From Cylindrospermum sp. NIES-4074 (lineage in GTDB: Bacteria; Cyanobacteriota; Cyanobacteriia; Cyanobacteriales; Nostocaceae): a stretch of 64,000 nt of DNA. The notes under the pieces are model-generated. The model did no database searches and was not told where the DNA came from. It saw only the letters and a program-made list of their open reading frames with translations. Of the stretch, positions 11,856-34,090 are shown piece after piece (the stretch's first letter is position 1; every line of letters begins with the position of its first letter). A program made the translations under genes and the position numbers. Location of the stretch: the NCBI GenBank assembly GCA_003994795.1, contig AP018269.1:5643254-5707253 (forward strand), read 5' to 3'.

Positions 11856-11908
11856 CCAGAAAGAATTAATTTCAATTTAAAATTCCTACTTTCCTCAACT
11901 CAGAGTTT

Positions 11909-13231: not shown

Positions 13232-13309
13232 TCATCCAGCATTTTTTGGTGATTCTTAAACTTAAGTTAACGCACGAGGTATACTAACAAATCTACAAGG
13301 AGACTTTTT

Positions 13310-15844: not shown

Positions 15845-16720
15845 ATGAATGACCTCACTTCACTTAAATTCCTCAAAAATGAGCCATTCTGGCTTTTGAG
15901 CATTGGTGCTGCACTAGAAGCTATTTGTATCACTTTAGTTTGGCGTGCTCATGATGTTGGTCATTTGGGGATGACTCTTTTGTTTTTGTTCGCTACAGGT
16001 AGCCTCCTGTGGGACAAACGCCGTAAATTGACCTTTGAGAGTGGGGTCTTTCCCAGTACTGTCGGTATGGTGCTAATTGGTTGGGTACTTTGGCAGAGTG
16101 CAACTCTGAATGTAGAACATACCTTGCGTCTACTATCCTTTACTTCTGCCGTTGGTGTCGGCTTGCTAGCTTCTGGCTTTAAAGGATTAAAGCAATATTG
16201 GGAGGAACTGGTAATCCTGTTTTTCCTGGGTGTACCGAGTGTAATTGCGGAACGACTATTTGACCTTTCACCCTTGACTGCCAAATTTTCAGGTTTGTTG
16301 TTGTGGTATGCGGGTTTTGATGTTGCGGTGAAGGGGACTAGTGTCTATCTACCAACAGGTAGCATCAAGGTTATTTATAGCTGCTCTGGTATAGATACCA
16401 TTCTGTATATCTTGGGTATATCTGTGATTGCGATGATCATGTTTCCTGTTGCCAAAAGCAAGCGCATCTTTGTACCAATTATTGCGGTGACACTAGGATT
16501 TGTGGTCAATGGCATCCGAATAGCCATGTTGGCAGTGTTTGCAGGCTCAAACCAAGCTGCCTTTGATGATTGGCATGGGGGAAAAGCTTCTTATACCTAT
16601 GCGATGATCGGTATTCTGATTTTTGGGGCTGTTTATATGTTTATGCTGTGGCAAGAAGAGCAGCAAGCCAAGAATAAGACAACTGCAAACCAAATCCCTA
16701 GCGATCGCCAAAGTCTTTAA
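15845..16720 (+). CDS. cyanoexosortase (transpeptidase-like membrane protease)
   Basis: A 291-residue integral membrane protein with about eight segments. The exosortase catalytic residues are visible: Cys180 in YSCSGIDTILYILG, Arg225 in VVNGIRIAML and His244 in FDDWHGG. Exosortases recognise a C-terminal PEP-CTERM-type tail on exported proteins, cleave it, and probably transfer the protein to envelope polysaccharide. The cyanobacterial type is called cyanoexosortase. A companion protein usually follows it, but here the next gene is msrA. No PEP-CTERM substrate lies in the window: the RTX proteins end in VLV without such a tail. Confidence 0.9.
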   Translation: MNDLTSLKFLKNEPFWLLSIGAALEAICITLVWRAHDVGHLGMTLLFLFATGSLLWDKRRKLTFESGVFPSTVGMVLIGWVLWQSATLNVEHTLRLLSFTSAVGVGLLASGFKGLKQYWEELVILFFLGVPSVIAERLFDLSPLTAKFSGLLLWYAGFDVAVKGTSVYLPTGSIKVIYSCSGIDTILYILGISVIAMIMFPVAKSKRIFVPIIAVTLGFVVNGIRIAMLAVFAGSNQAAFDDWHGGKASYTYAMIGILIFGAVYMFMLWQEEQQAKNKTTANQIPSDRQSL

Positions 16721-16770
16721 AATATATGAAGTAAGACAAAAATCACTATCACAAATCAGAGTTACAATCA

Positions 16771-17439
16771 ATGGGACTATTTGGATTTGGTAAAAAGCTG
16801 GCTATGCCCTCTCCTGAGCAAGCTTTGCCAGGAAGAGCAGAATCTATCAAAGTACCAGCTACTCACTATGTCAATGGTCATCCTCTTAAACCTCCTTATC
16901 CTGACGGATTGGAAACAGCAATGTTTGGCTTAGGCTGTTTTTGGGGTGCAGAACGTAAATTCTGGCAACTTAAGGGAGTTTACACCACCGCCGTGGGTTA
17001 TGCTGCTGGCTTCACCCCTAACCCCACCTATGAAGAGGTATGTACTGGCTTAACAGGTCATAATGAAGTGGTATTGGTGGTATTTGATCCTCAAGTGATT
17101 AGTTATTCCCAACTGCTGAAAGTTTTCTGGGAAAGCCACAACCCCACTCAAGGGATGCGTCAAGGTAATGACAGTGGTACTCAATACCGTTCGGGAATTT
17201 ACGCTTATTCTGCAAGTCAAAAGCAGCTAGCGGAAGCTTCCCGCGATGCTTATCAACCAGCCCTGAATAGTGCAGGTTACGGGAAAATTACCACAGAAAT
17301 TCTGGATGCCCCTGAATTCTACTATGCAGAAGCTTATCATCAGCAGTATTTGGCCAAAAACCCCAACGGGTATTGTGGCTTAGGGGGGACAAATGTTGCT
17401 TGTCCTGTGGGCATAGTTGAATCTCAAGTGAGTGGTTAG
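16771..17439 (+). CDS. msrA: peptide methionine-S-sulfoxide reductase
   Basis: A 222-residue cytoplasmic repair enzyme reducing Met-S-sulfoxide. The active-site motif GCFWG is present with Cys56, as is the [20 protein letters not shown] region that binds the substrate. C-terminal Cys residues (GYCGLGG, NVACPVG) supply resolving thiols. A 45-residue N-terminal extension ([18 protein letters not shown]) is typical of cyanobacterial and plant forms. It follows the exosortase gene by 50 bases and may be co-transcribed. Confidence 0.95.
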
Positions 17440-18388: not shown

Positions 18389-20407
18389 ATGAAGCGATTT
18401 ACTGTCTACACGACTCTCATGGGCACTGTCACAGATATTAATCAAGACAAAGGCTCATTCACGATAAAATGCCGTAGTGGCGACGAAATTTTGGTTTATG
18501 TCGGCAGAGAAACTCAATTTAACTTTCTCCAAAATTTGGATGGTGTAACCCGTGACCGAGTACCAAATCCTGAAAATTTTAATGCCTCAGAACCGTCGCA
18601 ATTAGTAACGAAATATATTCAGCTTAATCACCTGATAGTGCTACAAGGTGTATACCAAGAACATGATAGCCAAAAGCACTACGATGCGCGGATTGTTACC
18701 TTACTAAATTCACCAGAAGGAGATTATCTTTTTGAGCAGACGCATTGGTGGATTACACAAATTGCCCGTTTAGCTGATAGCTGGTTGGGTTATTTGTTTC
18801 CGAATAAACAAACTTATGAAATTGATGATTTTTCTCTCTACCGAACTAATTTAAACATTATTGGCCTACCAACAGATGACACTATTCAGGAATGTGCAAC
18901 TCTTTCTAGATTGATTTATGGTCTTTCATCAGCTTACTTGTTAACTGGAGGAGAACGTTATATTTCCGCCGCTCGTGCGGGAGTGCAGTATCAACGGGAA
19001 ACCTTTCGCAGTTTAACTGCTGATGGTAAACGCTGTTTTTGGGCTTTTGGTAAGCGCAAAACTGAATACAGTTATCAACTCTACATGAGATCATTAAACG
19101 ACGATGACAGAGATACAATCCCACTCTACGAGCAAATTTATGCCTTAGCTGGATTAGCTCAATACTATCGAATTACTTTAGATTGGGAAGTTCGTGATGA
19201 TATCCACCGGACTATTCGCACCTTCAATGACTTCTTTGTTGATCCTGAATCCGAGTATGGAAAACATGCTTATGGTGATTATTTTTCACACCTTGATTAT
19301 GTAGACTTTACCTGGGATAGTCCTGCTCTTGGTCACAATCAAGCGAGGAAAAATTGGAACTCGATTGGAGACCATATACCTGCTTATTTGATTAACCTGA
19401 TTCTGGCTTTAGAGCCATTACCAGTAACTGATCATGGACATGAGGAAATCCGGAAATTTGTTGAGATATGTAAAAAAATTCTCAAAACAACATCCACAAT
19501 CATTGTGGATAAATTTCCTGATCCAGATCCCAGCGTTCCGTTTGTAAATGAGCGATTTTTCCGCGACTGGAAACCGGATCATAATTGGCGATGGCAGCAA
19601 AACCGTGCTGTTATTGGGCATAATTTGAAGATTGCCTGGAACCTGACTCGCTGTGCTAATTATTTCTACTCTCTAGCTGCTCAGTCTGCTAATGATAATG
19701 AACAAGAAGCGGAGGAATCTAAACAGTTAGCCAATAAATTGATGAAGCTAGCCGAGAAGTTAGGGGCTAATATGGCTAAGGTTGGTGTAGATGTATTCCG
19801 AGGTGGAATTTTCGATACATTAGAGCGGAATCCTCATAATGAGATGCCTCTAGAATTCCCTTGGTTGAACACTAAAGACTTTTGGCAACAAGAACAAGCT
19901 GTTTTAGCTTACCTAATTCTTCATGGTTGTAGTAATGAGGAAGAAGACCAAAAGAAAGAGTATTTGCAGTTGGCGCGAGAGATGGCAACATTTTGGAATT
20001 TATTCTTTCTCGACCAAGACAATAAAGGGGTTTTCTTCCGAGTTAGTGAAAGTGGAGATGCGATTACTACAGGTAATTTTGGTCAAAAAGGTGGACATGC
20101 TATCTCTGGATACCATGCTTTTGAGCTAAATTATTTGGCTCACATTTATATCAGCACCTATGTACTCAAAGAACCTTTCTGCCTTTACTTCAAACCAAAT
20201 GCAAATTGTCGGCAGCGCTCTATTAATGTTTTACCTGATTTTGTTAAACCCAATACTTTGGAAGTTAGCAGAATCAATATTGATGGTACAGAGCAAGAGT
20301 CAATAGACCCTGACAACTTTCAACTTGAATTGGGAGAACGGGAATTTAAACTTGGTTCGGAGGCAGAAATTATTGTGGAATTGAAACCCAAGCTAGAGGT
20401 GAAATAA
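18389..20407 (+). CDS. AGE-family epimerase/isomerase-like protein with N-terminal beta domain
   Basis: A 672-residue cytoplasmic protein. Residues 1-110 look like a small beta-barrel (GTVTDINQDKGSFTIKCRSG) not usual in the family. Residues 115-610 are an alpha/alpha barrel of the N-acylglucosamine 2-epimerase superfamily: YEQIYALAGLAQYY near 247, KNWNSIGDHIPAYL near 321, RAVIGHNLKIAW with His411, FWQQEQAVLAYLIL near 515, and GGHAISGYHAFELNYLAH near 580. These positions match His and aromatic residues of the sugar-binding cavity. A beta-rich tail closes the protein. Family members epimerise or isomerise sugars or cellobiose; the substrate here is unknown. First gene of a one-strand cluster, 4 bases before a DJ-1 gene. 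Confidence 0.72.
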   Translation: MKRFTVYTTLMGTVTDINQDKGSFTIKCRSGDEILVYVGRETQFNFLQNLDGVTRDRVPNPENFNASEPSQLVTKYIQLNHLIVLQGVYQEHDSQKHYDARIVTLLNSPEGDYLFEQTHWWITQIARLADSWLGYLFPNKQTYEIDDFSLYRTNLNIIGLPTDDTIQECATLSRLIYGLSSAYLLTGGERYISAARAGVQYQRETFRSLTADGKRCFWAFGKRKTEYSYQLYMRSLNDDDRDTIPLYEQIYALAGLAQYYRITLDWEVRDDIHRTIRTFNDFFVDPESEYGKHAYGDYFSHLDYVDFTWDSPALGHNQARKNWNSIGDHIPAYLINLILALEPLPVTDHGHEEIRKFVEICKKILKTTSTIIVDKFPDPDPSVPFVNERFFRDWKPDHNWRWQQNRAVIGHNLKIAWNLTRCANYFYSLAAQSANDNEQEAEESKQLANKLMKLAEKLGANMAKVGVDVFRGGIFDTLERNPHNEMPLEFPWLNTKDFWQQEQAVLAYLILHGCSNEEEDQKKEYLQLAREMATFWNLFFLDQDNKGVFFRVSESGDAITTGNFGQKGGHAISGYHAFELNYLAHIYISTYVLKEPFCLYFKPNANCRQRSINVLPDFVKPNTLEVSRINIDGTEQESIDPDNFQLELGEREFKLGSEAEIIVELKPKLEVK

Positions 20408-20411
20408 TAAT

Positions 20412-21062
20412 ATGATAACCGGGGGATTGGCAGGCAAGAAAATTGCAGTTCTTGTAGAGACTGAATATATTCCTGAAGAAATTGCAGCTTATCAAACCCG
20501 TTTTCAGGAACTTGGGGCAACGGTACATTTAATGTCTCGCCTTTGGGGCTACGAAAGTCTTCGTTTCGTTAGTGATGTTGATACAGTTGATAAGCCTTTG
20601 CACTACCTAGACGTAAACATTGACTTTCAGAATGTGGATGTTAATGATTATGCTGCTGTGATTATGTCTGCTGGCTATACTAGTGTGCGCCTGCGTTTTT
20701 TTGAACCACCAAAAGGTTGCCCAATCAGTCCAGAACAAACTCGTACCGCTCCAGCAGTTCAATTCTTTGCCAAAGCGATCGCCAATCCCCAGATTATCAA
20801 AGGAAGTCTTTGCCACGGACTATGGCTGCTGACACCGATGCCAGAGTTACTCCAAGGGCGAAAAGTAATTTGTCATGAAGTCACCCTTGCAGATATTGTG
20901 AATGCGGGTGCTGTTTACGTTCCATCCGCTTCAGGCATTGTTGTAGATGGTGATCTAGTTACAGGACGGACAGCACATGAGGTAGATGCATTTATTGATG
21001 CGATCGCCAAATTAATCATCCATCAACAATCAATAAGAAGTGTTGTCTCTTCAAGATCATAA
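20412..21062 (+). CDS. DJ-1/PfpI-family protein (first copy)
   Basis: A 216-residue protein of the class I glutamine-amidotransferase-like fold. The nucleophile elbow is GSLCHGLWLL with Cys134, and the conserved acidic residue is in VETEYIPEE (16-22). The strand-forming NDYAAVIMSAGY is as in the family. Members include proteases, glyoxalase III, deglycases and hydratases, so the reaction cannot be told from sequence. It starts 4 bases after the epimerase-like gene, so the two are surely co-transcribed. A paralogue lies at the end of the cluster (25664). Confidence 0.85.
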   Translation: MITGGLAGKKIAVLVETEYIPEEIAAYQTRFQELGATVHLMSRLWGYESLRFVSDVDTVDKPLHYLDVNIDFQNVDVNDYAAVIMSAGYTSVRLRFFEPPKGCPISPEQTRTAPAVQFFAKAIANPQIIKGSLCHGLWLLTPMPELLQGRKVICHEVTLADIVNAGAVYVPSASGIVVDGDLVTGRTAHEVDAFIDAIAKLIIHQQSIRSVVSSRS

Positions 21063-21159
21063 GCTGTAAGGACTAAAAGCTATGTCAACACCCTTCAATG
21101 CTTACTCCTAGTAAAAAGGTAATACCCAGATAACAATTCTGAATCAGAGGAGAGCAGAA

Positions 21160-22980
21160 ATGAGAACAGCTAATTATGCACAGCGAGATCAAGCTGCACA
21201 AGTTGTTTTTTACGTCCCACTGTGGAAAAGAAAAGGCATTTCTTTAGAGTTATTCGATGATTATTGGCGAAACGTTCACGGCCCAGTCTGCGCCCGTTTA
21301 CCTGGGCAGTATCAATACTGGCAACTTCATGTAGCACATAATGAGGGGGGGATTTGGCCAGCTATTGAAGGTATCGATTACAGCACTCCCGAAGAAGATC
21401 AGTTTGATGGCATTGCTGAGTTAACTTTTAAAACCCCTGAAGACCGCCAGACATGGTTTCAGGCTTCTACCATCCTCATGGATGACGAGCATAACTTATT
21501 TCGCAAGGCGATCGGTTACAACACCAACCCAGGCAATTCCATTACTTATGTTGATGGTATTGAAAACGGTACTCCTAACGGTGTGGCGGGTGTGGAAAAA
21601 TTTCATGTCTTGGTCAAAAAAGCTGATGGTGTGAGCACAGATGATTTTCGCCATTATCTGACAGATAGCTTTGCACCAGCGGTAATCAAGAGTGAGTTAG
21701 TGCTGAAAATGCGATCGCATTTGTTTGAAGAGGTAGATAATTCCCGCCCCGACGCAGCAGGAGTATCTCATTTTGAACCACCTCAACAGCAATATCAAGC
21801 AGCATTTGAAATCGCCTTCTCCAACCGCCTAGAAATGGAACAATTTTTCGCCTCAGATGCCTATGCCGCCGCAGTCAAAGACCAAGCAAAGTATATCAAA
21901 CAAATCAGCCCCTTTCCCGAACGAACTGCTTACACCTTTGTGTATAGCGGTCAGATCACTCTTGCCGGTCAGCGGAGTTCTACAGTTGCCGAACTGATTA
22001 CCAGAATAGGAGCTGCCAATCAAATCAAAGAAGACATCATTTCTCTGATGAATGGTTCTGCAAAACCTACCCAAAAAGGCAAAATCTCCACACAGACAGC
22101 AAAAGCTTATATCCAAAACGGTATCCAGTCTACTAAGTCTGGTTTGGGTCATTTACTCCAAGGTGTGCAACATGTCGGTGTAACTGTTGAGGACATGGAA
22201 AAATCTCTGGAATTTTACACAGAGGTGTTAGGGGGAAAACTTGCTGTCGGCGAAAGTGAGCTAATAGGTGATTTAATCCAAAACACTCTTTTTCAAAAAG
22301 AAGAACTGGATGCAATCGCCGAGGGAATTAACTCGGAAATACTTGATATTCCCAACCTCAGAAGTGGCAGAAAAGATGCATTAGACGTTAAATTTATTTC
22401 TTTCGGCAACATCGTTGTTGAATTGATTTATTTCAGAGAAGTGGGGAATCCCAATGCACCTCATAGCTCAGTTAAAAGCCTTCCTTCCCACATTGGTCAT
22501 GTCAATGCCATGCATATTTCTTTTAATGTCAAAGAGGGAATTGACTTAAGTGAGTTTGCTAATATTTTTGAAGAAGAGTGTCACAAACGAGGGATGAATA
22601 ATGTAGTTTGTAACCGCATTATTCACGTCAATTCTGAAGCCGAAAGAAAAGCTGTTGCTCACCATTACAATTCTTTCAAGTTTTGGAATGAGCCGGGGTT
22701 ATTAGCAGCAGAAGCACCACCAATAGACTGGAGTAAAGACCCAATGGAAGGTTGGTCATTATTCTACTGCAAAGGGCCAAATGGGGAACAACTGGAATTT
22801 AATCAAGTCACCCGCAAGGTAAAAACTCGTTTCCAAGAAGCATTGCAGGAATATAACCAGGCCAATAACACCTCCTTCACCTTTCCAGATGCCAACGTTT
22901 CCCAGAATACCTTAGATAACGGACAAGGTTTTAAAACTTCTGATGTCCAAGTTCAAAGCCAAACCCAATATTCTACTTAA
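21160..22980 (+). CDS. EthD-EthD-VOC fusion protein
   Basis: A 606-residue fusion. Residues about 12-130 and 145-270 are two EthD-type dimeric alpha/beta-barrel domains (VFYVPLWKRKGISLELFDDY; FHVLVKKADGVSTDDFRHYL). After a helical linker (275-335), residues 335-565 form a vicinal-oxygen-chelate domain with plausible metal ligands: His in QHVGVTVEDM, Glu in NIVVELIYF, His in AMHISFNV and Glu in EQLEFNQV. VOC enzymes are glyoxalases, dioxygenases or isomerases; EthD domains occur in ring-modifying and small-molecule pathways. I know of no named enzyme with this order. The ribosome binding site GAGGAG lies 9 bases before the ATG. The tail is Gln/Asn-rich and probably disordered. Confidence 0.8.
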   Translation: MRTANYAQRDQAAQVVFYVPLWKRKGISLELFDDYWRNVHGPVCARLPGQYQYWQLHVAHNEGGIWPAIEGIDYSTPEEDQFDGIAELTFKTPEDRQTWFQASTILMDDEHNLFRKAIGYNTNPGNSITYVDGIENGTPNGVAGVEKFHVLVKKADGVSTDDFRHYLTDSFAPAVIKSELVLKMRSHLFEEVDNSRPDAAGVSHFEPPQQQYQAAFEIAFSNRLEMEQFFASDAYAAAVKDQAKYIKQISPFPERTAYTFVYSGQITLAGQRSSTVAELITRIGAANQIKEDIISLMNGSAKPTQKGKISTQTAKAYIQNGIQSTKSGLGHLLQGVQHVGVTVEDMEKSLEFYTEVLGGKLAVGESELIGDLIQNTLFQKEELDAIAEGINSEILDIPNLRSGRKDALDVKFISFGNIVVELIYFREVGNPNAPHSSVKSLPSHIGHVNAMHISFNVKEGIDLSEFANIFEEECHKRGMNNVVCNRIIHVNSEAERKAVAHHYNSFKFWNEPGLLAAEAPPIDWSKDPMEGWSLFYCKGPNGEQLEFNQVTRKVKTRFQEALQEYNQANNTSFTFPDANVSQNTLDNGQGFKTSDVQVQSQTQYST

Positions 22981-23061
22981 CAGCAAAGAAGCTATGGAAT
23001 AGTAAGAAATTCAAAATAAATTACCAACCCAAGAAAAGCGGCAACAAATCGGAGAATCCAA

Positions 23062-23988
23062 ATGGATAACAAATTTCCAGGAATTAATGCCGAGTTAGTC
23101 CAGCGTCTCTTTGCTAGAGGTGAAGCTTTTGATTCGGAAGGATTCATTAGCTTCTTTACTGACGCACCTGTATATCAATTTGCTAACTTCGATGTGTGTT
23201 TAGATAAAACATCGATCAAGAAATCGGCGGACGAATTCTTTAGTAAAATCTCGGCGGTTTACCACGAAATCAAGATGATTTGGGAAGTAAACAATTTTGT
23301 CTTCGTCGAAATGGATGTTCTCTACTGGCGCAAAGATAACTCAATGGTTACACTTCCTTGCACCGATGTTTTTCGGATCGAGGGAGAAAAAATCAGTGAA
23401 CTGCGGATATTTATGGATGTGAATCCCGTATTTGACCCATCAATTTCTGTCACTGAAAAAACTTCTGTATTTACTGAAAATGAAGGAAAGAAACTGATAC
23501 CTCCCAGTACAATGAAGAGGTTCTACACCGAACATCCAGAAGGAAGGGAAAGAGTCTCAACGGGATTCGCCCCTAAATGGTCGATAAATAGGCCAAAATG
23601 GCCGATAAGTGCAACATCTTCTGGCGACTTGCTCTCGAAAGCGGAAAAGATGGTAGAGGTGCTGACAGCAGAAGATTGGGAAGCCTTCTATCCCTATTTT
23701 ACTGAAGATTTATTTTACAAAGTGGGTGCAAACGACCCCTTGCATGGGCCTAAAGGGGCGGCGGGATTTTTATCTGACTTTTATAAGATCATCAAGCCGA
23801 CAAAGCACGACATCAGAGGTACTTGGCAAATAGGAAACACGGTAATTATAGAGATGGATGCCAACTACAAGCGTGTGAGTGACGGCAAGAAAATAACAGT
23901 TCCCTGCACCGATATTTACCGATTCCAAGGAGATTTGATCAAGGAATGGCGGGTCTACCCGGATATGTCTCCTGTGGAAGTCGCTTAA
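23062..23988 (+). CDS. double NTF2/SnoaL-like domain protein
   Basis: A 308-residue protein made of two NTF2-fold (SnoaL-like) domains. The first covers residues about 8-130 (FFTDAPVYQFANFDVCLDKT, TLPCTDVFRIEGEKISELRI), the second about 190-306 (YFTEDLFYKVGANDPLHGPK, TVPCTDIYRFQGDLIKEWRV). The shared pattern PCTD(V/I)(F/Y)R shows that they arose by duplication. A linker with Lys/Pro/Trp joins them. Such domains are cyclases, isomerases, hydratases or ligand-binding proteins in natural product pathways. The closest relative in the window is the broken gene just downstream (24098). Confidence 0.82.
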   Translation: MDNKFPGINAELVQRLFARGEAFDSEGFISFFTDAPVYQFANFDVCLDKTSIKKSADEFFSKISAVYHEIKMIWEVNNFVFVEMDVLYWRKDNSMVTLPCTDVFRIEGEKISELRIFMDVNPVFDPSISVTEKTSVFTENEGKKLIPPSTMKRFYTEHPEGRERVSTGFAPKWSINRPKWPISATSSGDLLSKAEKMVEVLTAEDWEAFYPYFTEDLFYKVGANDPLHGPKGAAGFLSDFYKIIKPTKHDIRGTWQIGNTVIIEMDANYKRVSDGKKITVPCTDIYRFQGDLIKEWRVYPDMSPVEVA

Positions 23989-24097
23989 TCTTTAGGTAAC
24001 TTAATCCCAATTTGAGGAAAATCCAGATATTTCTCTAGTAAGTGCAGATATAGACAAAAGTAAAAGAGAATCCACAGGCACAAAGGAGAAGAACTAG

Positions 24098-24575
24098 ATG
24101 TCAGCACAAGAGACAATCACTGACTTAGAGGTTGAATCAGCCCACATGAAAGTAGTCCGCAGCCAGCTAAAATCAGCTGAAGGTGAGCAGGCTGATTATG
24201 ATCTCTTCGTTTCTTATTTCACAGAGGATGGAACATACCAGTTTGATAATTTTGATGTCCGTAGGGGACGAAAGAATATCAAGCAAATGTTTAGTGACTT
24301 ATATCCACTAGTCAAAGGTTACTCACAAACAACTATCCGGTTACGGTCACGATATCAAGAGCTTGGAGCAACTAGGTAATAAAGTTTTCTGCGAAATGTA
24401 CACTCTCTATTTGATAGATGGAGAAGAAAGACTCAGGATTCCTTGCTTCGGTGTATACACATTTGAAGGCGACTTGATCAAGGGTTAAAAGTTGTTTATG
24501 GATACTTCTCCCTTGTTCTTTGATACTTCTAAGTTGATTCCTTTTGGTAAGCCATACAAGGGACTGGAATTCTAA
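24098..24575 (+). pseudogene. broken NTF2/SnoaL-like gene (22-base insertion and nonsense codon)
   Basis: The intact-looking 5' part reads FVSYFTEDGTYQFDNFDVRR, like the first domain of the upstream gene, but runs to a stop at 24379. Removing a 22-base segment (24317-24338), bounded by a direct repeat GGTTAC, restores the frame. The reading then runs VKGYGHDIKSLEQLGNKVF, and IPCFGVYTFEGDLIKG, in register with the paralogue. A second lesion, TAA at 24486-24488, sits where paralogues have Trp (IKEW). The frame then continues KLFMDTSPLFFDTSKL to the stop at 24575. It is a recently decayed third NTF2 gene in the cluster; sequencing error cannot explain both lesions easily. Confidence 0.82.
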
Positions 24576-24669
24576 ATCACTCAATAGGCTTGATGTTAAT
24601 AAAGCTAATGGCAAGGGTCAAGTCTCCCTGTAACTTCCTGAGTTTTGAAGTTCTGGATATGAGGATAAA

Positions 24670-25041
24670 ATGGTGTCTGAAAATTTCATCAAAACAAATG
24701 CAGTTCTTGGTGATAAAAAACTGCAAGCAGATTTGAGGGCTATTAACCCAAAGTTTGGTGATTTTGTGATTCGTACAGCAGGTGAGGTCTGGGGTCTGCC
24801 ATTAATTGACCAAAAAACCAAAGCTTTGATCACAATTGCTGTTGATGTTGTGAATCAGGATCATGTCGGCCCAGGTAATCCCTTTGGCGCTCATATTCAC
24901 ATGGCTCTTCAGCAAGGTGTCACCCGTGAGGAGATAGAGGAACTACTTTTGTTCATGTGTGTTTATGCCGGATTCAACAAGGCGGCTGGCTGTTTTGGCT
25001 CCTTGAATGAGGTTCTAGAATCTGCGAAATTCTCAGGGTAA
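24670..25041 (+). CDS. carboxymuconolactone decarboxylase/AhpD-like protein
   Basis: A 123-residue all-helical protein of the CMD family (FGDFVIRTAGEVWGLPLID, KTKALITIAVDVVNQ, FGAHIHMALQQGVTREEIEE, LLFMCVYAGFNKAAGCFGSL). The His in AHIHMAL is at the CMD active-site position. The CxxC of peroxidase-active AhpD is absent, so a decarboxylase- or lactonase-like role, or a non-redox role, is more likely. It lies 7 bases before the next gene. Confidence 0.87.
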   Translation: MVSENFIKTNAVLGDKKLQADLRAINPKFGDFVIRTAGEVWGLPLIDQKTKALITIAVDVVNQDHVGPGNPFGAHIHMALQQGVTREEIEELLLFMCVYAGFNKAAGCFGSLNEVLESAKFSG

Positions 25042-25048
25042 ATAATCT

Positions 25049-25621
25049 ATGAAACAGCGGATTAACTACTACAAAGAGTTGATAGCCGATTATTCAAAAC
25101 CGGGACTCGTTTCTCCAGAATTAGCAGATAAACTCATCTTTGAAGCTAAGAAATTAATCGCTTTAAAAGAGGAAATTTTACCCAGTATTAATCATGATTA
25201 TTCACTCGAACAAATTGAAAAGGAAAATCAAGAGTGGTGGCCGACTCATTGTGAAGCATTGAGGCAGGGAAGAGGTGATATTTTAACTGGAGAATATCGG
25301 CAAGATTTGGTTTATTTCTGCCAAGATGGACCCTATTATGGTCTAAATGAACAAAAAGAGCGAGAGCAACATTGGTGGGCATTAATCGCCCAACCAGGCG
25401 TGACTATGTGTTGGCCAATTGTCATGTTTCACGGTGAATTTGTTTGGTTTGAGTGGAATTGTCTTGACAATGAAACTAACGAAACTATTGCTAAAGGTAG
25501 TGTAGCTTGGGTGCGTCGAGGTCATCGGGGTGGCTGTTATATCAAAGGTGAACAATTGACTTTTTATCGTGATGTCTTTGCACCTGATGCACTTTTGAGT
25601 TTGATGAACACAGGTAAGTAA
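25049..25621 (+). CDS. NTF2/SnoaL-like protein
   Basis: A 190-residue single-domain protein. After a helical N-terminus (residues 1-60) there is an NTF2-like fold (EWWPTHCEALRQGRGDILTG, DLVYFCQDGPYYGL, EFVWFEWNCLDNETNETIAK, RGHRGGCYIKGEQLTFYRDV). The Trp- and His-rich core suggests a ligand or substrate pocket. Different from, but of the same fold as, the double-domain protein at 23062. It follows the CMD gene by 7 bases, so co-transcription and coupled function are likely. Reaction unknown. Confidence 0.75.
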   Translation: MKQRINYYKELIADYSKPGLVSPELADKLIFEAKKLIALKEEILPSINHDYSLEQIEKENQEWWPTHCEALRQGRGDILTGEYRQDLVYFCQDGPYYGLNEQKEREQHWWALIAQPGVTMCWPIVMFHGEFVWFEWNCLDNETNETIAKGSVAWVRRGHRGGCYIKGEQLTFYRDVFAPDALLSLMNTGK

Positions 25622-25663
25622 ATACAAAATATCAATCCAATAATCTCAAGGATGGAGGATAAT

Positions 25664-26293
25664 ATGGTTACTGAAAGCAAAGGTAAAATAGGTGTACTCA
25701 TTGAAGAACATTTTGACCCTTTTGAATTTCGTGCTTTTAATAAATACTTCCCTCAGCAAGGATATGAAGTTGAATATATTTCTTATCTCTGGGGGAATAA
25801 GGAAATAACATTCAATAGCAATTCTGAGGATGGTGTAATTAAAGAGCACGTAACAGTTACTACAGATGTTTCTGACCTGAATCCAGCAGATTATCGAGCT
25901 ATCATCTGTATTGGTGCTTATGCAATGGATCGTCTAAGATATCAGGAAAAGGTAAAAAAAGGTGCGCCTAATAATGCTCCTGCGGTGGTATTTATTCGCA
26001 AAGTCATGCAGGAACCTAATGTCAAAATAGGAGTCATTTGTCATGGCTTATGGCTGCTGTCTGCCGCTGACATACTCAAAGATAGAAAGGTCACTTGTGC
26101 TCACAACATCTTGTCTGATATAGAAGATGCAGGTGCGGAAATTATCTATGAAAATGATCTGGCTGCTGATTTAGTTATAGATGGCAATTTAATTACAGGA
26201 AGGCATCCAGACCTTGTAGATAAATTTATGGATGCTGTGGTCAAAGAGGTTGAGAAAAAGCAGCGAAGTCTTCATGCTGCTATGCTGCGTTAA
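25664..26293 (+). CDS. DJ-1/PfpI-family protein (second copy)
   Basis: A 209-residue paralogue of the protein at 20412. The nucleophile elbow is GVICHGLWLLSAADIL (Cys126), the acidic partner lies in VLIEEHFDPFEFR, and the acid/base region is KVTCAHNILSDIEDAGAEII. The ATG at 25664 is chosen because GGAGG (25654-25658) stands five bases before it; an ATG at 25652 would have no useful spacing. Two DJ-1 copies bracket the EthD/NTF2/CMD genes, which suggests two related steps or a heteromeric enzyme. Reaction unknown. Confidence 0.83.
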   Translation: MVTESKGKIGVLIEEHFDPFEFRAFNKYFPQQGYEVEYISYLWGNKEITFNSNSEDGVIKEHVTVTTDVSDLNPADYRAIICIGAYAMDRLRYQEKVKKGAPNNAPAVVFIRKVMQEPNVKIGVICHGLWLLSAADILKDRKVTCAHNILSDIEDAGAEIIYENDLAADLVIDGNLITGRHPDLVDKFMDAVVKEVEKKQRSLHAAMLR

Positions 26294-26368
26294 TCAATTG
26301 AGGAGCAATTAAGTAATTGAAAAAACGGGTAATTTCCTCAGATTCACATTTGACCCTACTTGACAATT

Positions 26369-26437
26369 AGACATCTCCATAAATTAGCTTTGGACTTAGG
26401 CAATCTCAAGATTGTTGGCTGATTTTTGGAGATGTCT
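26369..26437. repeat. small MITE-like hairpin element
   Basis: A 20-base imperfect terminal inverted repeat (AGACATCTCCATAAATTAGC at the left; the complement of the right end reads AGACATCTCCAAAAATCAGC) encloses 29 bases, which include a second small hairpin (CAATCTCAAGATTG). It lies in the 244-base gap between the DJ-1 gene and the GH13 gene and may influence read-through. Confidence 0.65.
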
Positions 26438-26537
26438 ATTGCTTAGTGATGGCGCGGTTAAGGTTTGTAACCATAATTTATTAGTAAGACAACCTTTGAA
26501 AAAGTTTTCTAAATGATGTGAGAAAAAGGATGTTTTT

Positions 26538-28991
26538 ATGCCAACAATTCCTGTTCAGTTTAACTATTACACTGGTTTAAAAAGAGAAATTTTTGCCAAT
26601 GCCCGCTTAACTGGCAGTTGGGATGAAAATGGTCGCTACTCCCAGCAATGGCAGTCTATACCGATGCAGCAAATAACTGGTGAAGATGGCTGTCCCTGTT
26701 TCCAAGCAACTGTGGAATTGGATGACTCTCAAGTTGGTTGGTTATTTCGCTGGGGTGTGACTGTAGATACTCAGGCTGGTAGTAATATTTGGGGGATTAC
26801 AACTGAGGTTAATGAAAGTAATTCAAGCGATCGCTACCGTTGTTTTCATCTGCAAGCTACCAACGGCTCTCAACCTCAACAACAGAGCTATTATCTCACT
26901 TTTGCTCGCCGTTTAGGAGCGCAAAAATACTTTCTTCCTAGTCAATCTGAGCCAGGGATTCAGTTTGCCGTTTGGGCACCAAATGCTGAAAAAGTGGAGG
27001 TTGTGTTTAGCAATCAAACCAGTGGTTACATTGCCGATGATGGTTCGGGAATAGATCCAGGCATAGGCCCGTTTCCTCTTTTTCGTCAGGCAGATGGTAT
27101 TTGGCAGACAGATATAGCTGTCTCTTCCCAACTTGAATATTTCTCTAAATTTGACCATATCCCCTATATGTTCAAGATTACTAAGGAAGGGGGACAGATA
27201 GCCTATCGGACAGATTTATATTCTCGCTGCCAGATTGGTAAAGGAAATATAGACCCTCAAGGACAACCCTATGCTCGTAGTTACAGGGAACTAGATGGGA
27301 CTAAAGGCTGTTCTGTAGTCATCAATCCAGAAACAGTGACTAGACAATTCGAGGAAAATGTGTATCCTGAAATTGACTTTATGCCAGCGGCAGAGTTTTG
27401 GCAAGATGAGTTTCGTGATGGTCGAACAGTCCCCCATCGGGTTGAGGATCTGGTGATCTACGAACTGCATCTAGGAGCCTTGGGGTACGGACAAAACAGA
27501 CCAGGAAACTTAAAGGATGCAATTGGCCTGCTGCCATATTTAGTTGATCTTGGCGTTAACGCTGTGGAAATACTACCGTTGGCTGAATTTAGAGATAGTA
27601 AAAATTGGGGGTATGAAACATCCCATTATTTTGCCTTGGAATACAGTGCAGGTGGTCGAGATCAATTGAAGCATTTTATCAGGGAGTGCCACCGTCACGG
27701 CATAGCGGTAATTTTAGATGTGGTTTATAACCATTACAATCCTGATGGAGAGAGGGCTGAGTGGTCTTACGACTCAAATATTCAAGAACACAACATCTAT
27801 TACTGGTATGAGGGAAAATCCACCGATTATCCCCAGCCGGAGGGAGGTTATGTTGATAACGGGTCTACAGGTTTCTCACCCCGCTTTTATGAAGAGATAG
27901 TGCGGAAGATGTTTATTAGCAGTGCGGCTGTCTTGATGGAAGAGTTCCACGTTGACGGCTTCCGGGTTGATCAGACGACTTCTATGCATCTGTACAATGT
28001 ACTTCATGCTGATGGTAGACCCCTAAGCAACGTTAACGTTTTTGGTGCTAAGTTCCTCAGGGAATGGACTCGGACTCAGAAACTAATTCGACCAACAGCG
28101 CTGCTAATTGCGGAGGATCATTCTGATTGGGAGGCAGTAACCGAGTCTCCTGATGTTGGCGGTTTAGGGTTTGATGCGGCTTGGTTTGCCAATTTCTACC
28201 ATCATTTAATCGGTGACACCAGGCAAGGAACAGAATATGCTAAATTGATTCCCACTGCTGGATACGGCACAGATGAGCCTCTGGCTATGGACTATTTTGC
28301 TGGCGCATTGGCATGGTCAGGTCATAAAAAAGTGGTGTATCATGAATCCCACGATGAAGCGGGTAACGCATCTTCTGAGGTGGGAGGACAGCGGGTTGAA
28401 TCTCGGCGCACTATTGTCTCTGCGGTGAATTCAGCGCCATTGATTGGTGAAACTCGCCGCTATGGTGAAGCTCGTTCTCGCTTTGCTTTTGGGATGTCGG
28501 CACTTTCTGCTGGTACGCCTATGTTCTTTATGGGTGAAGAGATTGGCGCTCAAAAGCCCTACAGATATCGGGATTTTCTGGAATATCGGGAAGATTTGTT
28601 AGGCGATCGCCAAACCACTGGTCAGCGATTATTTCAATTTTATCAAGACTTGATTCAGTTGCGACACCATCATCCAGGGTGGCGATCGCATTTCATTGAC
28701 GTTATCCACGTCCACAATGCTAATCGGGTGATTGCATTCCGGCGTTGGGATACAACAGATGAGTTGTTAGTTTTAGCGAGTTTAAATAATCACCCTTTTG
28801 GGAATGGTTATATCGTTAACAATTCACAAATAGCAGATGGTCAATGGCAAGAGATATTCAATAGTGATGCCTCACGCTATGGGGGAGATAACATTGGCAA
28901 CTTCGGCGCTAATATCCCTGCAAGTAATGGTCGGTTTAATGCTGTCATACCTGCAAATGGATTTGTAGTCTTCCAAAGAGTTGGATTTTGA
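26538..28991 (+). CDS. GH13 family glycoside hydrolase/branching-enzyme-like protein
   Basis: An 817-residue cytoplasmic enzyme (no signal peptide). N-terminal beta-rich domains (1-130 and a CBM48-like domain about 138-225: GIQFAVWAPNAEKVEVVF) precede the TIM barrel (about 300-700). Catalytic regions: DVVYNH (394-399), GFRVDQ with nucleophile Asp478, LLIAED with acid/base Glu526, and YHESHDEAG with His605/Asp606. The C-terminal beta domain ends at 817. The IV region (ESHDEA) is more like eukaryotic-type branching enzymes than GlgB. It probably acts on alpha-1,4-glucans, but product specificity is unclear. It ends the AGE/DJ-1/EthD cluster but is separated from it by 244 bases with a MITE, so membership is uncertain. 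Confidence 0.85.
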   Translation: MPTIPVQFNYYTGLKREIFANARLTGSWDENGRYSQQWQSIPMQQITGEDGCPCFQATVELDDSQVGWLFRWGVTVDTQAGSNIWGITTEVNESNSSDRYRCFHLQATNGSQPQQQSYYLTFARRLGAQKYFLPSQSEPGIQFAVWAPNAEKVEVVFSNQTSGYIADDGSGIDPGIGPFPLFRQADGIWQTDIAVSSQLEYFSKFDHIPYMFKITKEGGQIAYRTDLYSRCQIGKGNIDPQGQPYARSYRELDGTKGCSVVINPETVTRQFEENVYPEIDFMPAAEFWQDEFRDGRTVPHRVEDLVIYELHLGALGYGQNRPGNLKDAIGLLPYLVDLGVNAVEILPLAEFRDSKNWGYETSHYFALEYSAGGRDQLKHFIRECHRHGIAVILDVVYNHYNPDGERAEWSYDSNIQEHNIYYWYEGKSTDYPQPEGGYVDNGSTGFSPRFYEEIVRKMFISSAAVLMEEFHVDGFRVDQTTSMHLYNVLHADGRPLSNVNVFGAKFLREWTRTQKLIRPTALLIAEDHSDWEAVTESPDVGGLGFDAAWFANFYHHLIGDTRQGTEYAKLIPTAGYGTDEPLAMDYFAGALAWSGHKKVVYHESHDEAGNASSEVGGQRVESRRTIVSAVNSAPLIGETRRYGEARSRFAFGMSALSAGTPMFFMGEEIGAQKPYRYRDFLEYREDLLGDRQTTGQRLFQFYQDLIQLRHHHPGWRSHFIDVIHVHNANRVIAFRRWDTTDELLVLASLNNHPFGNGYIVNNSQIADGQWQEIFNSDASRYGGDNIGNFGANIPASNGRFNAVIPANGFVVFQRVGF

Positions 28992-29399: not shown

Positions 29400-30146
29400 A
29401 TGACAAATACAGAAATTCGCACCAGTTACGTTAAAGTCGGCAACGGTGATTTGCAAATAGATGCTTACTTGGCCGAACCAGCTAGTGAGGGGTCTTTCCC
29501 TGCTGTGATTGTGATTCAAGAAATCTTTGGGGTGAATATTCACATTCGGGAAACAACTGAGAAGCTGGCTAAAGAGGGGTATGTGGCGATCGCACCAACT
29601 TTATTTCAACGCACCGCTCCCGGTTTTGAAGGTGGGTACACCCCTGAAGATGTGCAACAGGGGAGAAAGTACAAGGAGCAAACCACAGCCGAAGAAATAT
29701 TAAGTGATATTAAAGCAGCGATCGCCTATTTGCGAAGCTTACCCAATGTCAACGGAGATGCGATCGGCTCTATTGGTTTCTGCTTCGGTGGTCATGTCGT
29801 TTACCTAGCCGCTACCCTACCAGATATCAAAGCCACTGCTTCCTTCTACGGTGGTGGGATTCCTACCTCCACACCAGGTGGTGGTGAACCTACCATCACT
29901 CGCACATCAGAAATTAAAGGCCCCATTTACGCCTTTTTCGGTACTGAAGATAAAGGAATCCCCTTAAAAGATACTGAACAAATTGAAGCGGAATTAAAGA
30001 AACATCTGATTCCCCATGCAATCTTCCGCTATGTCGGTGCAGAACATGGCTTTTTCTGCGACCATCGCGCTAGCTACAATCTTGAAGCCGCTACCGATGC
30101 TTGGCAAAAAGTTCTCGAACTATTCCAAAAAAACTTGCAATCATAA
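29400..30146 (+). CDS. dienelactone hydrolase family protein
   Basis: A 248-residue alpha/beta hydrolase with the Cys-type nucleophile of dienelactone hydrolases: Cys128 in GSIGFCFGGH, the Glu in VIQEIFGVN (E41) that holds the Cys in check, and His in AEHGFFCDHR. The family opens lactones such as dienelactone during aromatic degradation, but in cyanobacteria its substrates are unknown. Cytoplasmic, with no signal peptide. First gene of a group of hydrolase and oxidoreductase genes on this strand. Confidence 0.9.
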   Translation: MTNTEIRTSYVKVGNGDLQIDAYLAEPASEGSFPAVIVIQEIFGVNIHIRETTEKLAKEGYVAIAPTLFQRTAPGFEGGYTPEDVQQGRKYKEQTTAEEILSDIKAAIAYLRSLPNVNGDAIGSIGFCFGGHVVYLAATLPDIKATASFYGGGIPTSTPGGGEPTITRTSEIKGPIYAFFGTEDKGIPLKDTEQIEAELKKHLIPHAIFRYVGAEHGFFCDHRASYNLEAATDAWQKVLELFQKNLQS

Positions 30147-30253
30147 CACATTAGTAATTGGTAATACCTACTAAAAAACTACTAATTACTCATAAGTGTG
30201 CCCAGCTATCAATTCAGCAAATTTCTCTGAACAAAGAATAAAATACCAAGTCC

Positions 30254-31300
30254 ATGATGACCTCAATTAATCCACCAAAACTTAATATAGTTCAGCGATT
30301 TTCCCTACTCATATTACCTGGATTATTAACCCTGTCCACAAGCTTAATCAGTTGCTCATCTGATACCCCAAAAGCAGAAAATAACACTAGTGGTGTTAAA
30401 ACCAAAGTTGTTCACATGGGATATCAGAGCGCGGGTGATTTGGTAAGAATTAAAGGAGTGATCGAAAAACGCCTGCAACCCTTAGGTGTCACTGTCGAAT
30501 GGGCGCAATTTGCCGCTGGGCCGCAACTCATGGAAGCGATGAATGTGGGTAAAGTTGACGTTGGTTCTGTTGGAGAAACTCCCCCAATTTTTGCCCAAGC
30601 GGCTGGTACATCATTAGTTTATATTGCTGGTAATAAACCTTCTAGCGGCAAAGGCAGTGGCATCATAGTTCAAGATAATTCACCGATTCGCACTTTAGCT
30701 GACCTCAAAGGTAAAAAGATAGTTTTTCAAAAGGGTTCTGCTTCCCACTACTTGTTAATAAAAGCCCTAGAAGAAGGTGGTTTGAAATATAGTGATATTC
30801 AAGCTCTAAGTTTACCTCCCTCAGAAGCTCGTGATGCCTTTATTCAGGGAAAAATTGACGCCTGGGTAACTTGGGACCCATATTTAGCTGTGGCACAAAA
30901 AAAAGCTAAAGCTAGACTTTTAAGAGATGCCAGTGGCATTTCTACTCAGGGCGGATATTATATGGCTTCACGCAAATTTGCTACAGAAAATCCCAAATTA
31001 GTGCGATTAGTCTTAGAAGAAATTAATAGTCTTGGACAATGGGCTGAAAAAAATACATCTGAAGTTGTCAAACTTACCGCTCCTCATCTCAAAATTGATG
31101 AAGATATTTTAACAACAATGATTAACAGGCGGAGTTATGGCTTAAGACCAATTACGCCAGAAATCATGCAAAATCAACAGAAAATTGCAGATTTATTCGC
31201 CCAAGAAAAAATTATTCCTAAACCTATCAAAATTCAGGAAGCAATGTTAACTAATGAACAATATGCAGCCATTACACCGGAAACCATCAGTCAGAAATAA
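30254..31300 (+). CDS. SsuA-like aliphatic sulfonate-binding lipoprotein
   Basis: A 348-residue periplasmic binding protein with an N-terminal lipoprotein signal (LSTSLISCSS, Cys at about residue 34). The type II binding fold is of the SsuA/TauA family (GYQSAGDLVRIKGVIEKRL, GKVDVGSVGETPPIFAQAAG, DLKGKKIVFQKGSASHYLLI, GKIDAWVTWDPYL). It should capture sulfonates or related organosulfur for import. Permease and ATPase genes (ssuC, ssuB) are not adjacent, so it must share a transporter elsewhere. The flavin monooxygenase follows, as in sulfonate use. GGTAATG heptamers start right after the stop codon. Confidence 0.88.
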   Translation: MMTSINPPKLNIVQRFSLLILPGLLTLSTSLISCSSDTPKAENNTSGVKTKVVHMGYQSAGDLVRIKGVIEKRLQPLGVTVEWAQFAAGPQLMEAMNVGKVDVGSVGETPPIFAQAAGTSLVYIAGNKPSSGKGSGIIVQDNSPIRTLADLKGKKIVFQKGSASHYLLIKALEEGGLKYSDIQALSLPPSEARDAFIQGKIDAWVTWDPYLAVAQKKAKARLLRDASGISTQGGYYMASRKFATENPKLVRLVLEEINSLGQWAEKNTSEVVKLTAPHLKIDEDILTTMINRRSYGLRPITPEIMQNQQKIADLFAQEKIIPKPIKIQEAMLTNEQYAAITPETISQK

Positions 31301-31335
31301 GGTAATGGGTAATGGGTAATGGGTAATGGGTAATG
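31301..31335 (+). repeat. five tandem GGTAATG heptamers
   Basis: Five perfect copies of a 7-base unit directly after the ssuA-like stop codon. Short tandem heptamers of this kind are frequent in filamentous cyanobacteria and vary in copy number. Confidence 0.9.
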
Positions 31336-31460
31336 GGTTAGATGATTAACAGGATTTATTTGAGAATTATTAATATTAATCCTCCTCATCCTTAAATCCT
31401 GATCTAAATCAGATTTACTCAAACCACTACTTGTCTAAGTAATTCAAAATATAGAAAACC

Positions 31461-32822
31461 ATGAGTACCAAAAAAGCGCAACTGAGACTAGGAGCATTTT
31501 TGCCAGCTACCGGACATCATGTAGCAGCGTGGCGACATCCCAACGCCAGGGCTGATGGAGGTTTGAGCTTCCAACATTATCGAGAACTCGCCCAGACGGC
31601 TGAACGGGGTAAATTTGATATGGTCTTTCTGGCTGACGGACTGGCTGTTCGCGATCGCGGTAAAGGGAATGACGCTTTGAGCCGAACAGCAGTTGTCCAC
31701 TTTGAACCCCTAACCTTATTGTCTGCCTTGTCTACAGTCACACAGCGCATTGGCTTGACAGCGACCGTATCGACCACATACAACGAACCCTTTCACCTGG
31801 CCCGCAAATTTGCATCCCTAGATCATCTCAGTGGTGGTCGCGCTGGTTGGAATCTTGTCACTTCTGCCACCGAAGCGGAAGCGTTGAACTTCAGCCGGGA
31901 AAAGCATATGGAGCATACCCTGCGCTATGAGCGTGCTAAAGAATTTGTCGATGTCGTCAAAGCGCTGTGGGATAGTTGGGAAGATGATGCATTTTTATGG
32001 GACAAGGAATCAGGCGTTTATTTTCATCCTGACAAGTTGCACGTTCCCAACCACAAGGGCGAACATTTTTCAGTGCGTGGCCCCCTAAATGTTGCCCGTC
32101 CCCTGCAAGGATACCCAGTCATCATCCAAGCTGGGTCTTCTGAGGATGGTCAGCATCTCGCAGCGCAAACGGCAGAGGTGATTTTCACCGCCCAGCAGAC
32201 CCTTGAGGAAGCTCAGGCGTTTTATGCGGGTGTGAAGGGGAGACTGGCCCAATTCGGTCGTTCCCCTGAGCATTTGAAGATTATGCCGGGGGTGTTCCCT
32301 GTGATTGGTAAAACTGAACAGGAAGCTAGGGATAAATATGAGCAACTTCAGGAGTTAATTGATCCCCAGGTGGGATTAGGTCTGCTTTCTGGGCTGGTGG
32401 GAGGAGTGGATTTGTCTGGTTATCCATTGGATGGGCCACTGCCGAATTTACCAGAAACCAACCTGCACAAAAGCCGCTTGAAGCTATTAACGGATCTTGC
32501 CCGGAGAGAGAGTTTGACGATTCGGGATTTATATTTGGCGATCGCAGGCGCGCGTGGACACCGGACAATTTTAGGAACACCTGAACAGATAGCCGACCAG
32601 CTGGAAGACTGGTTTGTTAATGGTGGGGCTGATGGATTTAACATCATGCCGCCTTATTTGCCCGATGGGTTGAATGAATTTGTAGATTTGGTAGTTCCTG
32701 AACTGCAACGCCGGGGTCTGTTCCGCACTGAATACGAAGGCCACACATTGCGAGAAAATCTTGGACTACCTCGACCAGCAAACAAGTTCAGCACAATTGC
32801 CCCTGAACCTGTAGCCGTTTAG
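31461..32822 (+). CDS. flavin-dependent monooxygenase of the NtaA/SnaA/DszA family
   Basis: A 453-residue bacterial-luciferase-like protein (RLGAFLPATGHHVAAWRHPN, FDMVFLADGLAVRD, LTATVSTTYNEPFHLARKFA, SGGRAGWNLVTSATEAEALN, and HRTILGTPEQIADQLEDWF). Members use FMNH2 from a reductase to oxidise sulfonates, sulfones, chelators or amides. Its position after an SsuA-like binding protein suggests an organosulfur substrate. The reductase partner might be the NAD(P)H oxidoreductase at 34091. Length is normal for the family. Function beyond that is inference. Confidence 0.92.
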   Translation: MSTKKAQLRLGAFLPATGHHVAAWRHPNARADGGLSFQHYRELAQTAERGKFDMVFLADGLAVRDRGKGNDALSRTAVVHFEPLTLLSALSTVTQRIGLTATVSTTYNEPFHLARKFASLDHLSGGRAGWNLVTSATEAEALNFSREKHMEHTLRYERAKEFVDVVKALWDSWEDDAFLWDKESGVYFHPDKLHVPNHKGEHFSVRGPLNVARPLQGYPVIIQAGSSEDGQHLAAQTAEVIFTAQQTLEEAQAFYAGVKGRLAQFGRSPEHLKIMPGVFPVIGKTEQEARDKYEQLQELIDPQVGLGLLSGLVGGVDLSGYPLDGPLPNLPETNLHKSRLKLLTDLARRESLTIRDLYLAIAGARGHRTILGTPEQIADQLEDWFVNGGADGFNIMPPYLPDGLNEFVDLVVPELQRRGLFRTEYEGHTLRENLGLPRPANKFSTIAPEPVAV

Positions 32823-33218
32823 GTGAATTTTGAGTAGCGATGGTGCGTATGTTGCCAAGTCGCAGATAATTAGCGAATTAGTTTTCCAATTTACTCAATA
32901 TAGCGGTATGCACTTGGATGAAATACATCATAGCCCCCTCATCGCTTGCGGGGAGGGGGTTGGGGGTGGGGTTCTTGTATCTCACTCAACCGAGAACTGC
33001 TATATCTGCAAAAGAGTTCAACAGATTTTAGAGCAACTCTACCTAATCTTAGTGTTTGGCAAAAGTGTTGGAGAAAGACTAATGAATTTTCTCCAGCACT
33101 TTTTTCTTTTTTGCAAAAAAATCAATTTCACAGAATTTTTCGGTTAATTAGACCACATAGCTGTAAGCAAATTAAACTGGAACTCTCTAAGTTTGTTTAT
33201 CAAAGTTATTGAGTTACT
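32823..33218. repeat. repeat-rich gap with a likely MITE and terminator
   Basis: No convincing gene. It has 20 bases (32837-32856, GCGATGGTGCGTATGTTGCC) shared exactly with 17495-17514. A G-rich repeat at about 32900-33010, with ends like TATAGCGGT and (complement) TATAGCAGTT, is of a kind common in filamentous cyanobacteria. A terminator lies at 33063-33108. Confidence 0.5.
33063..33108 (+). terminator. Rho-independent terminator
   Basis: A 13-bp stem with one G-T pair (AGTGTTGGAGAAA/TTTCTCCAGCACT) is followed by TTTTTCTTTTTT. It ends transcription about 240 bases after the monooxygenase gene. Confidence 0.75.
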
Positions 33219-34022: not shown

Positions 34023-34090
34023 GGTCTAGGATCTGGGGATGAAGACAAAAGTTTTTCCGAAGTTAGCAATATTCTTAATAGGGTAAAAAC

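Follow-up and report, generated by a model that had tools for sequence, protein, structure and literature searches.

The gene cluster at 18,389-28,991 of the window (the whole 64,000-nucleotide stretch of Cylindrospermum sp. NIES-4074 DNA that was analysed) is very probably akin to the icfG operon of Synechocystis PCC 6803 (slr1852-slr1862), and there is an even chance that it represents a divergent, enzyme-only branch of the icfG-type cluster whose genes act in one metabolic route. Across cyanobacteria, AGE, DJ-1 and GH13 genes are kept as a constant module, mostly accompanied by STAS and frequently also by RsbW/PP2C genes. Attached to this AGE module is a less constant group (EthD-EthD, CMD, 190-aa, VOC and SnoaL) whose members are fused with one another.

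Layout of the locus and comparison with the icfG operon

The ORF list of the window places nine same-strand (+) ORFs, including one broken gene, at 18389-28991, so that the nine genes on one strand of the original prediction are real, one of the nine being a pseudogene. The intergenic gaps are, in gene order, 4, 97, 81, 109, 290, 7, 30 and 244 bases. The genes are:

18389..20407, + strand, AGE-fold protein, 672 aa (alpha barrel; PF07221 under cut-off)
20412..21062, + strand, DJ-1/PfpI protein a, 216 aa (Pfam; Cys-His-Gly motif kept)
21160..22980, + strand, EthD-EthD-VOC fusion, 606 aa (Pfam EthD and Glyoxalase)
23062..23988, + strand, double NTF2/SnoaL-like protein, 308 aa (Pfam)
24098..24379, + strand, NTF2-like gene remnant (pseudogene), 93-aa ORF
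24670..25041, + strand, CMD-fold protein, 123 aa (Pfam)
25049..25621, + strand, 190-aa NTF2/SnoaL-like family, slr1852-type by position
25652..26293, + strand, DJ-1/PfpI protein b, 213 aa (Pfam)
26538..28991, + strand, GH13 alpha-glucan enzyme, 817 aa (Pfam)

In the case of the 93-aa NTF2-like ORF, the remainder of the domain lies just downstream in another frame with a further stop, and judged from these reading frames the gene at 24098-24379 is a frameshifted pseudogene. Scans of the cluster gave 26 promoter-like sites (mean of 28.4 in shuffles) and 7 terminators (mean of 10.8 in shuffles), no excess in either case. The source genome (7.7 Mb) has 4 DJ-1 matches: 2 lie in the cluster, and another neighbours a second 190-aa gene. 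This second copy is located in L145 (G000:C1:4925001-4945000) at 10628-13718, where it adjoins the DJ-1 gene and a gene for a 536-aa protein that weakly resembles AGE. Several other genomes of the family contain more distant 190-aa copies that score about 300 bits. Upstream of the cluster, at 15845-17439, an exosortase gene is followed by MsrA. Genes on the same strand at 29400-34810 encode a dienelactone hydrolase, an NMT1-type binding protein, a luciferase-like monooxygenase, an alpha/beta hydrolase and a flavodoxin-like reductase, possibly a second uptake/oxidation set. Two adjoining histidine kinases of about 940 aa are encoded at 37105-43390, one of them with an amino-acid-permease-like N-terminal half as in a transporter-type sensor, and the gene at 46770-48617 specifies a 615-aa protein that combines an eCIS_core with a LysM domain.

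Two relatives of the cluster (L163 and L164) show the order 190aa-CMD-DJ1-AGE-STAS-GH13-STAS-SpoIIE-RsbW, in which SpoIIE and RsbW, and one STAS of L163, were assigned by Pfam. This order fits the annotations of slr1853, slr1855, slr1856, slr1857, slr1859, slr1860 and slr1861, and from position we take slr1854 to be the DJ-1 protein and slr1852 to belong to the 190-aa family. In the literature, slr1853 is annotated as CMD (PMC3564720), slr1855 as N-acetylglucosamine 2-epimerase within a single salt-repressed operon slr1852-1862 (PMC8670252), and slr1856 as anti-sigma antagonist, slr1857 as isoamylase, slr1859 as antagonist, slr1860 as the IcfG phosphatase and slr1861 as kinase (PMC12329169). 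The same sources link the icfG operon to inorganic-carbon and glucose control (PMC8670252, PMC12329169) and describe mutants with defects at low carbon and in the presence of glucose (PMC12329169). The slr1857 primer, as printed in PMC4911114, encodes MERIDI and the GH13 proteins of L163 and L164 start with MERIDV; from this primer and from the gene order, both genomes are taken for Synechocystis.

Like the icfG operon, the window has AGE, DJ-1-type, CMD, 190-aa NTF2-like and GH13 genes clustered, and the original prediction that no named pathway has this set is not supported, as most of the enzymes correspond to the enzymatic half of slr1852-slr1862. The icfG operon also has STAS, RsbW and PP2C genes, whereas Pfam assignment of the neighbours at this locus revealed none of the three within 7 kb of the window AGE. 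In turn, the window has EthD-EthD-VOC and double NTF2 genes and a second DJ-1 gene, and EthD and VOC are absent from the icfG annotations in the accessible parts of the sources. The window AGE is 37-41% identical to the usual form, and the GH13 of the icfG operon (slr1857) is isoamylase-type whereas that of the window is nearer to GlgB/TreZ. Because partner-switch genes are missing from these 7 kb and the AGE and GH13 proteins are far from their icfG counterparts, regulation, and even substrate, of the window branch could differ from those of icfG. Among the papers listed by searches of an open-licence library, none describes the EthD-bearing cluster in its title or abstract start.

A constant module and a variable payload

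In a survey of 386 cyanobacterial genomes drawn evenly from the phylum, the AGE profile matched 38, and 38 AGE loci from 36 of these genomes were examined, two each in G003 and G323; this set excludes G311 and G449, whose matches were all weak and partial, as well as the weak second matches of G000 and G221. In the 7 kb around AGE, GH13 was found at 34 of the 38 loci, STAS at 33 (as its own gene in 24 cases, as a fusion with AGE in 9), DJ-1 at 32, RsbW at 20, the 190-aa gene at 19, CMD and SpoIIE at 18 each and EthD at 11, and one locus beyond these 11 had only VOC nearby. Thus DJ-1 was missing from six loci and GH13 from four. Nine of the 38 stretches extend less than 7 kb from AGE, owing to a contig end in five cases and to the stretch limit in four, and these counts are possibly low; in G098, a 190-aa gene lies just outside the AGE stretch.

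Among 217 genomes of the same family, with partial matches counted, 45 matched the EthD-VOC protein, 72 the 190-aa family and 84 AGE. The 190-aa and AGE proteins occurred together in 68 of the 217 genomes, alone in 4 and 16, respectively, and neither was present in 129 (Fisher p 1.8e-35). The EthD part was matched in 38 of the 45 genomes, the other 7 being VOC-only, short or weak, and these 38 genomes had the 190-aa family in all cases (p 1.1e-22) and AGE in 37 (p 3.4e-17); the p values ignore relatedness, and loci recruited by EthD were the source of both the 190-aa and the AGE profile. The claim that these genes belong together is borne out, as EthD, 190-aa and AGE genes co-occur far beyond chance in the 217 genomes and, in many genomes, the small-molecule domains occur as fusions with one another. 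A chance neighbourhood was rejected on the basis of genome co-occurrence, AGE-locus neighbours and fusions.

The nearest relatives of the window cluster occur in Nostoc sp. B(2019) (L093) and Dendronalium phyllosphericum CENA369 (L095), where genes for AGE (671 aa), DJ-1 a, EthD (301 aa), CMD, the 190-aa protein, DJ-1 b and GH13 (841 aa) follow each other on the same strand, in L095 with other genes interspersed. Their 190-aa proteins are 83 and 85% identical to that of the window, and their AGE proteins, of the same window type (about 670 aa), 80%, compared with 37-41% for the usual form. Unlike in the window, EthD is not fused to VOC in either relative. The two relatives also differ in NTF2 content: the row of L093 is without a VOC or a double NTF2 gene, and L095 has VOC and NTF2 as separate genes. 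Window-type AGE is followed by DJ-1 a, and the EthD payload stands behind them in the window, in L048/L093, in L050/L095 and, in a reduced form, in L049, where AGE has 485 aa and the stretch lacks a 190-aa gene. A different set stands behind window-type AGE in L146-L149, that of L149 consisting of a ThiJ-like DJ-1, a TPP enzyme, a tautomerase-SnoaL fusion and a GMC oxidoreductase. L150-L152 and L171 combine AGE with DJ-1, some of them also with GH13. As EthD is found at 11 of the 38 AGE loci and other window-type loci carry different enzymes, the link between AGE and payload is loose.

Within the genus, G040 (L070, G040:C2:1802001-1822000) has a deletion that starts at EthD residue 82 and ends inside a DJ-1 gene (probably b); its AGE is an 87-aa remnant and GH13 is kept. 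The other genome of the genus, G039, gave no match to the EthD-VOC, 190-aa or AGE protein. The broken NTF2-like gene of the window and the deletion of the EthD-to-DJ-1 segment in G040 suggest that the route may be decaying in the source lineage.

The original prediction also stated that no transporter is present, which is right for 18.4-29.0 kb itself but not for its relatives: in 40 relative stretches, OprB porins were found in 13 and MFS proteins in 6, besides SDR in 14 and DUF4432 in 7, each family being named from one representative. In the row on a plasmid of Nostoc NIES-3756, RefSeq calls the SDR a glucose 1-dehydrogenase and the DUF4432 protein an aldose 1-epimerase. OprB, SDR and DUF4432 in the relatives hint at a sugar, but such neighbours are few at the 38 AGE loci (2, 5 and 2, respectively). 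These neighbourhoods bear on the alternative that the cluster makes a specialised metabolite from a non-sugar, aromatic or polyketide-like substrate, with AGE and GH13 supplying or trimming, for example, a glycosyl group. EthD, SnoaL, CMD and ABM folds are frequent in polyketide and aromatic pathways, and multicopper oxidase, SDR and porin genes adjoin some of the relatives. However, there is no scaffold-building enzyme among the nine genes, the plasmid row of Nostoc NIES-3756 has two genes named for aldose and glucose, and the most constant companions of AGE are GH13, STAS and DJ-1, and we consider this alternative improbable.

Folds, conserved residues and fusions

With Pfam PF07221, the window AGE scores 20.8 bits and does not reach the curated cut-off of 23.4; a whole-genome search with PF07221 gave no match in the source genome, and with named controls no Synechocystis sequence was among the results. 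In the VIA-align structure list, which barely tests residues outside 111-597, the protein shows the AGE alpha barrel, the same as in the AGE superfamily enzymes cellobiose 2-epimerase, mannose isomerase and GlcNAc 2-epimerase. Those enzymes are 372-423 residues long (rows 1-24 of the list) compared with 672 for the window AGE, share 11-18% identity with it and have two conserved histidines in motifs resembling its own. The window protein has an additional N-terminal beta part of about 105 aa, and beta parts at both ends. His411 and His576 are invariant in 24/24 aligned sequences (window included) and may be the two catalytic histidines; for the GH motif, an alignment was obtained with 8bry and a weak one with 3wkf.

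The 190-aa protein, left without a label in the original prediction, has no match in Pfam or NCBIfam. Its family has a mean column identity of 79% over 27 sequences from four phyla. The structural model (pLDDT 87.9) gave 44 PDB matches at E <= 0.001, with SnoaL/ketosteroid-isomerase-like and designed NTF2 proteins in the top rows and all coverage confined to the NTF2 part (TM by query 0.36-0.48); by this model it is a further NTF2/SnoaL-type fold. In a tree of 68 rows, the window sequence groups with those of L093 and L095 (support 100/98), inside a clade of 16 rows (98/94) that contains five non-cyanobacterial rows, suggesting, though not proving, transfer of the family between phyla.

The 606-aa fusion scores over the cut-off with Pfam EthD (68.6 bits, in two stretches) and with Pfam Glyoxalase (31.3 bits vs a cut-off of 20.6). 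Its residues H338, E421, H452 and E546, invariant in 18/18 aligned sequences, are presumed by us to be the VOC metal ligands after the familiar glyoxalase pattern. In the CMD protein, E39 and H75 are invariant in 18 aligned sequences, and as no CxxC column was found in the 18 aligned proteins, an AhpD-type peroxidase was rejected. In DJ-1, E18, C130 and H131 are invariant in 14/14 aligned sequences, both window copies included, and we assume C130 to be the nucleophile-elbow Cys and E18 its partner Glu. Among the 25 models listed, the window GH13 scores highest with GlgB and TreZ, in both cases under the cut-off; it has a CBM48-like stretch at 21.4 bits vs a cut-off of 22.4 and matches the GH13 proteins of L162-L164 at 68-71 bits only.

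Fusions were surveyed in 73 EthD-pattern loci of named genomes, derived from the best 80 of 228 matches. Among the 73 loci from these best matches, EthD and the 190-aa domain were joined in one ORF (EthD-EthD/190-aa) in 25, EthD and VOC in 26, CMD-EthD-EthD-VOC-NTF2 single proteins were present in 20 and AGE was fused to STAS in 8. The non-proteobacterial EthD loci among the best 80 of 228 matches belong to cyanobacteria and to bins of Acidobacteriota, Nitrospirota and Ignavibacteriota; the non-cyanobacterial loci L096, L099, L133, L115, L120 and L122 come from metagenome bins that are possibly mis-binned, although L099 lies on a contig of 399 kb. Proteobacterial EthD relatives (L137-L144, 34-38% identity) were rejected as cluster carriers, as 0/8 had another window or accessory query protein nearby. 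A family (F8; L043, L058, L119, L161 and others) in which a response-regulator domain is fused to a pyridine nucleotide-disulphide oxidoreductase, assigned by Pfam from L043 only, is recurrent near AGE-STAS genes.

The tree and the fusions also allow us to weigh the idea that functionally unlinked genes travel together on a mobile island. Such an island would fit the patchy distribution (45 of the 217 genomes with EthD-VOC matches), the non-cyanobacterial sequences among cyanobacterial ones in the 190-aa tree, and the cluster copies on two cyanobacterial plasmids. A plasmid DNA search with 24098-25041 found two plasmids, each matched by the CMD part only. Domain fusions, recurrent order across genera, the high conservation of the 190-aa family (mean column identity 79%) and the conservation of presumed active sites speak against such an island, and we regard it as very improbable.

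A proposed route and its meaning

That the cluster genes share a single route is well supported and, in our judgement, highly likely, whereas the sugar-ketone chemistry proposed for it here is tentative, as is the sugar-derived reactive carbonyl or lactone suggested in the original prediction. The GH13 enzyme would free oligosaccharides or sugars from alpha-glucan, and the AGE-fold enzyme would epimerise or isomerise a reducing sugar via an enediol. The keto sugar formed in this way may then undergo enolisation, dehydration or decarboxylation by the EthD, VOC, NTF2/SnoaL and CMD proteins, independently of redox cofactors, with DJ-1 hydrating or scavenging reactive dicarbonyls along the route. 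In icfG-type relatives, the route would be tied to carbon status by anti-sigma partner switching; the window branch would have lost, or never had, adjoining partner-switch genes.

A different account of the same folds is that DJ-1, VOC, EthD, NTF2 and CMD proteins form a clean-up of reactive carbonyls and glycation, detoxifying dicarbonyls and damaged sugars from fast breakdown of glycogen or imported sugar, with no dedicated product. DJ-1 and VOC folds include known glyoxalases and deglycases, the cluster holds two DJ-1 genes and MsrA lies 949 bases upstream of it; in PMC3564720, slr1853 and slr1854 are among the ethanol-induced genes. Yet the CMD-EthD-EthD-VOC-NTF2 fusions look like a dedicated conversion rather than general defence, as does the payload of L149 with its TPP enzyme, tautomerase-SnoaL and GMC oxidoreductase, and expression studies report repression of the related Synechocystis operon under salt (PMC8670252) and of slr1857 under high copper (PMC4182526). 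A clean-up system is, to us, on the unlikely side.

Returning to the sugar-ketone route, its most specific version is a rather unlikely one. In this version, the enzymatic part of the icfG operon, released from partner-switch control in the window branch, would be an undescribed route that first makes a keto sugar out of sugar from glycogen. Fused EthD-VOC-NTF2-CMD proteins would next enolise, dehydrate and decarboxylate this intermediate without cofactors, and the small lactone, furanone or pyranone so formed would serve as a signal or buffer of carbon status.

The passages of the icfG literature at hand deal mainly with kinase, phosphatase and STAS proteins and give no reason for the epimerase, CMD, DJ-1 and NTF2-like genes. 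EthD, VOC and SnoaL domains fused to icfG-type genes across cyanobacterial genera make these proteins candidate enzymes of one route, and the window branch, being without regulators, offers a small enzyme set for testing the chemistry. The cluster matters chiefly as a pointer to the icfG operon's enzymatic half, still unexplained.
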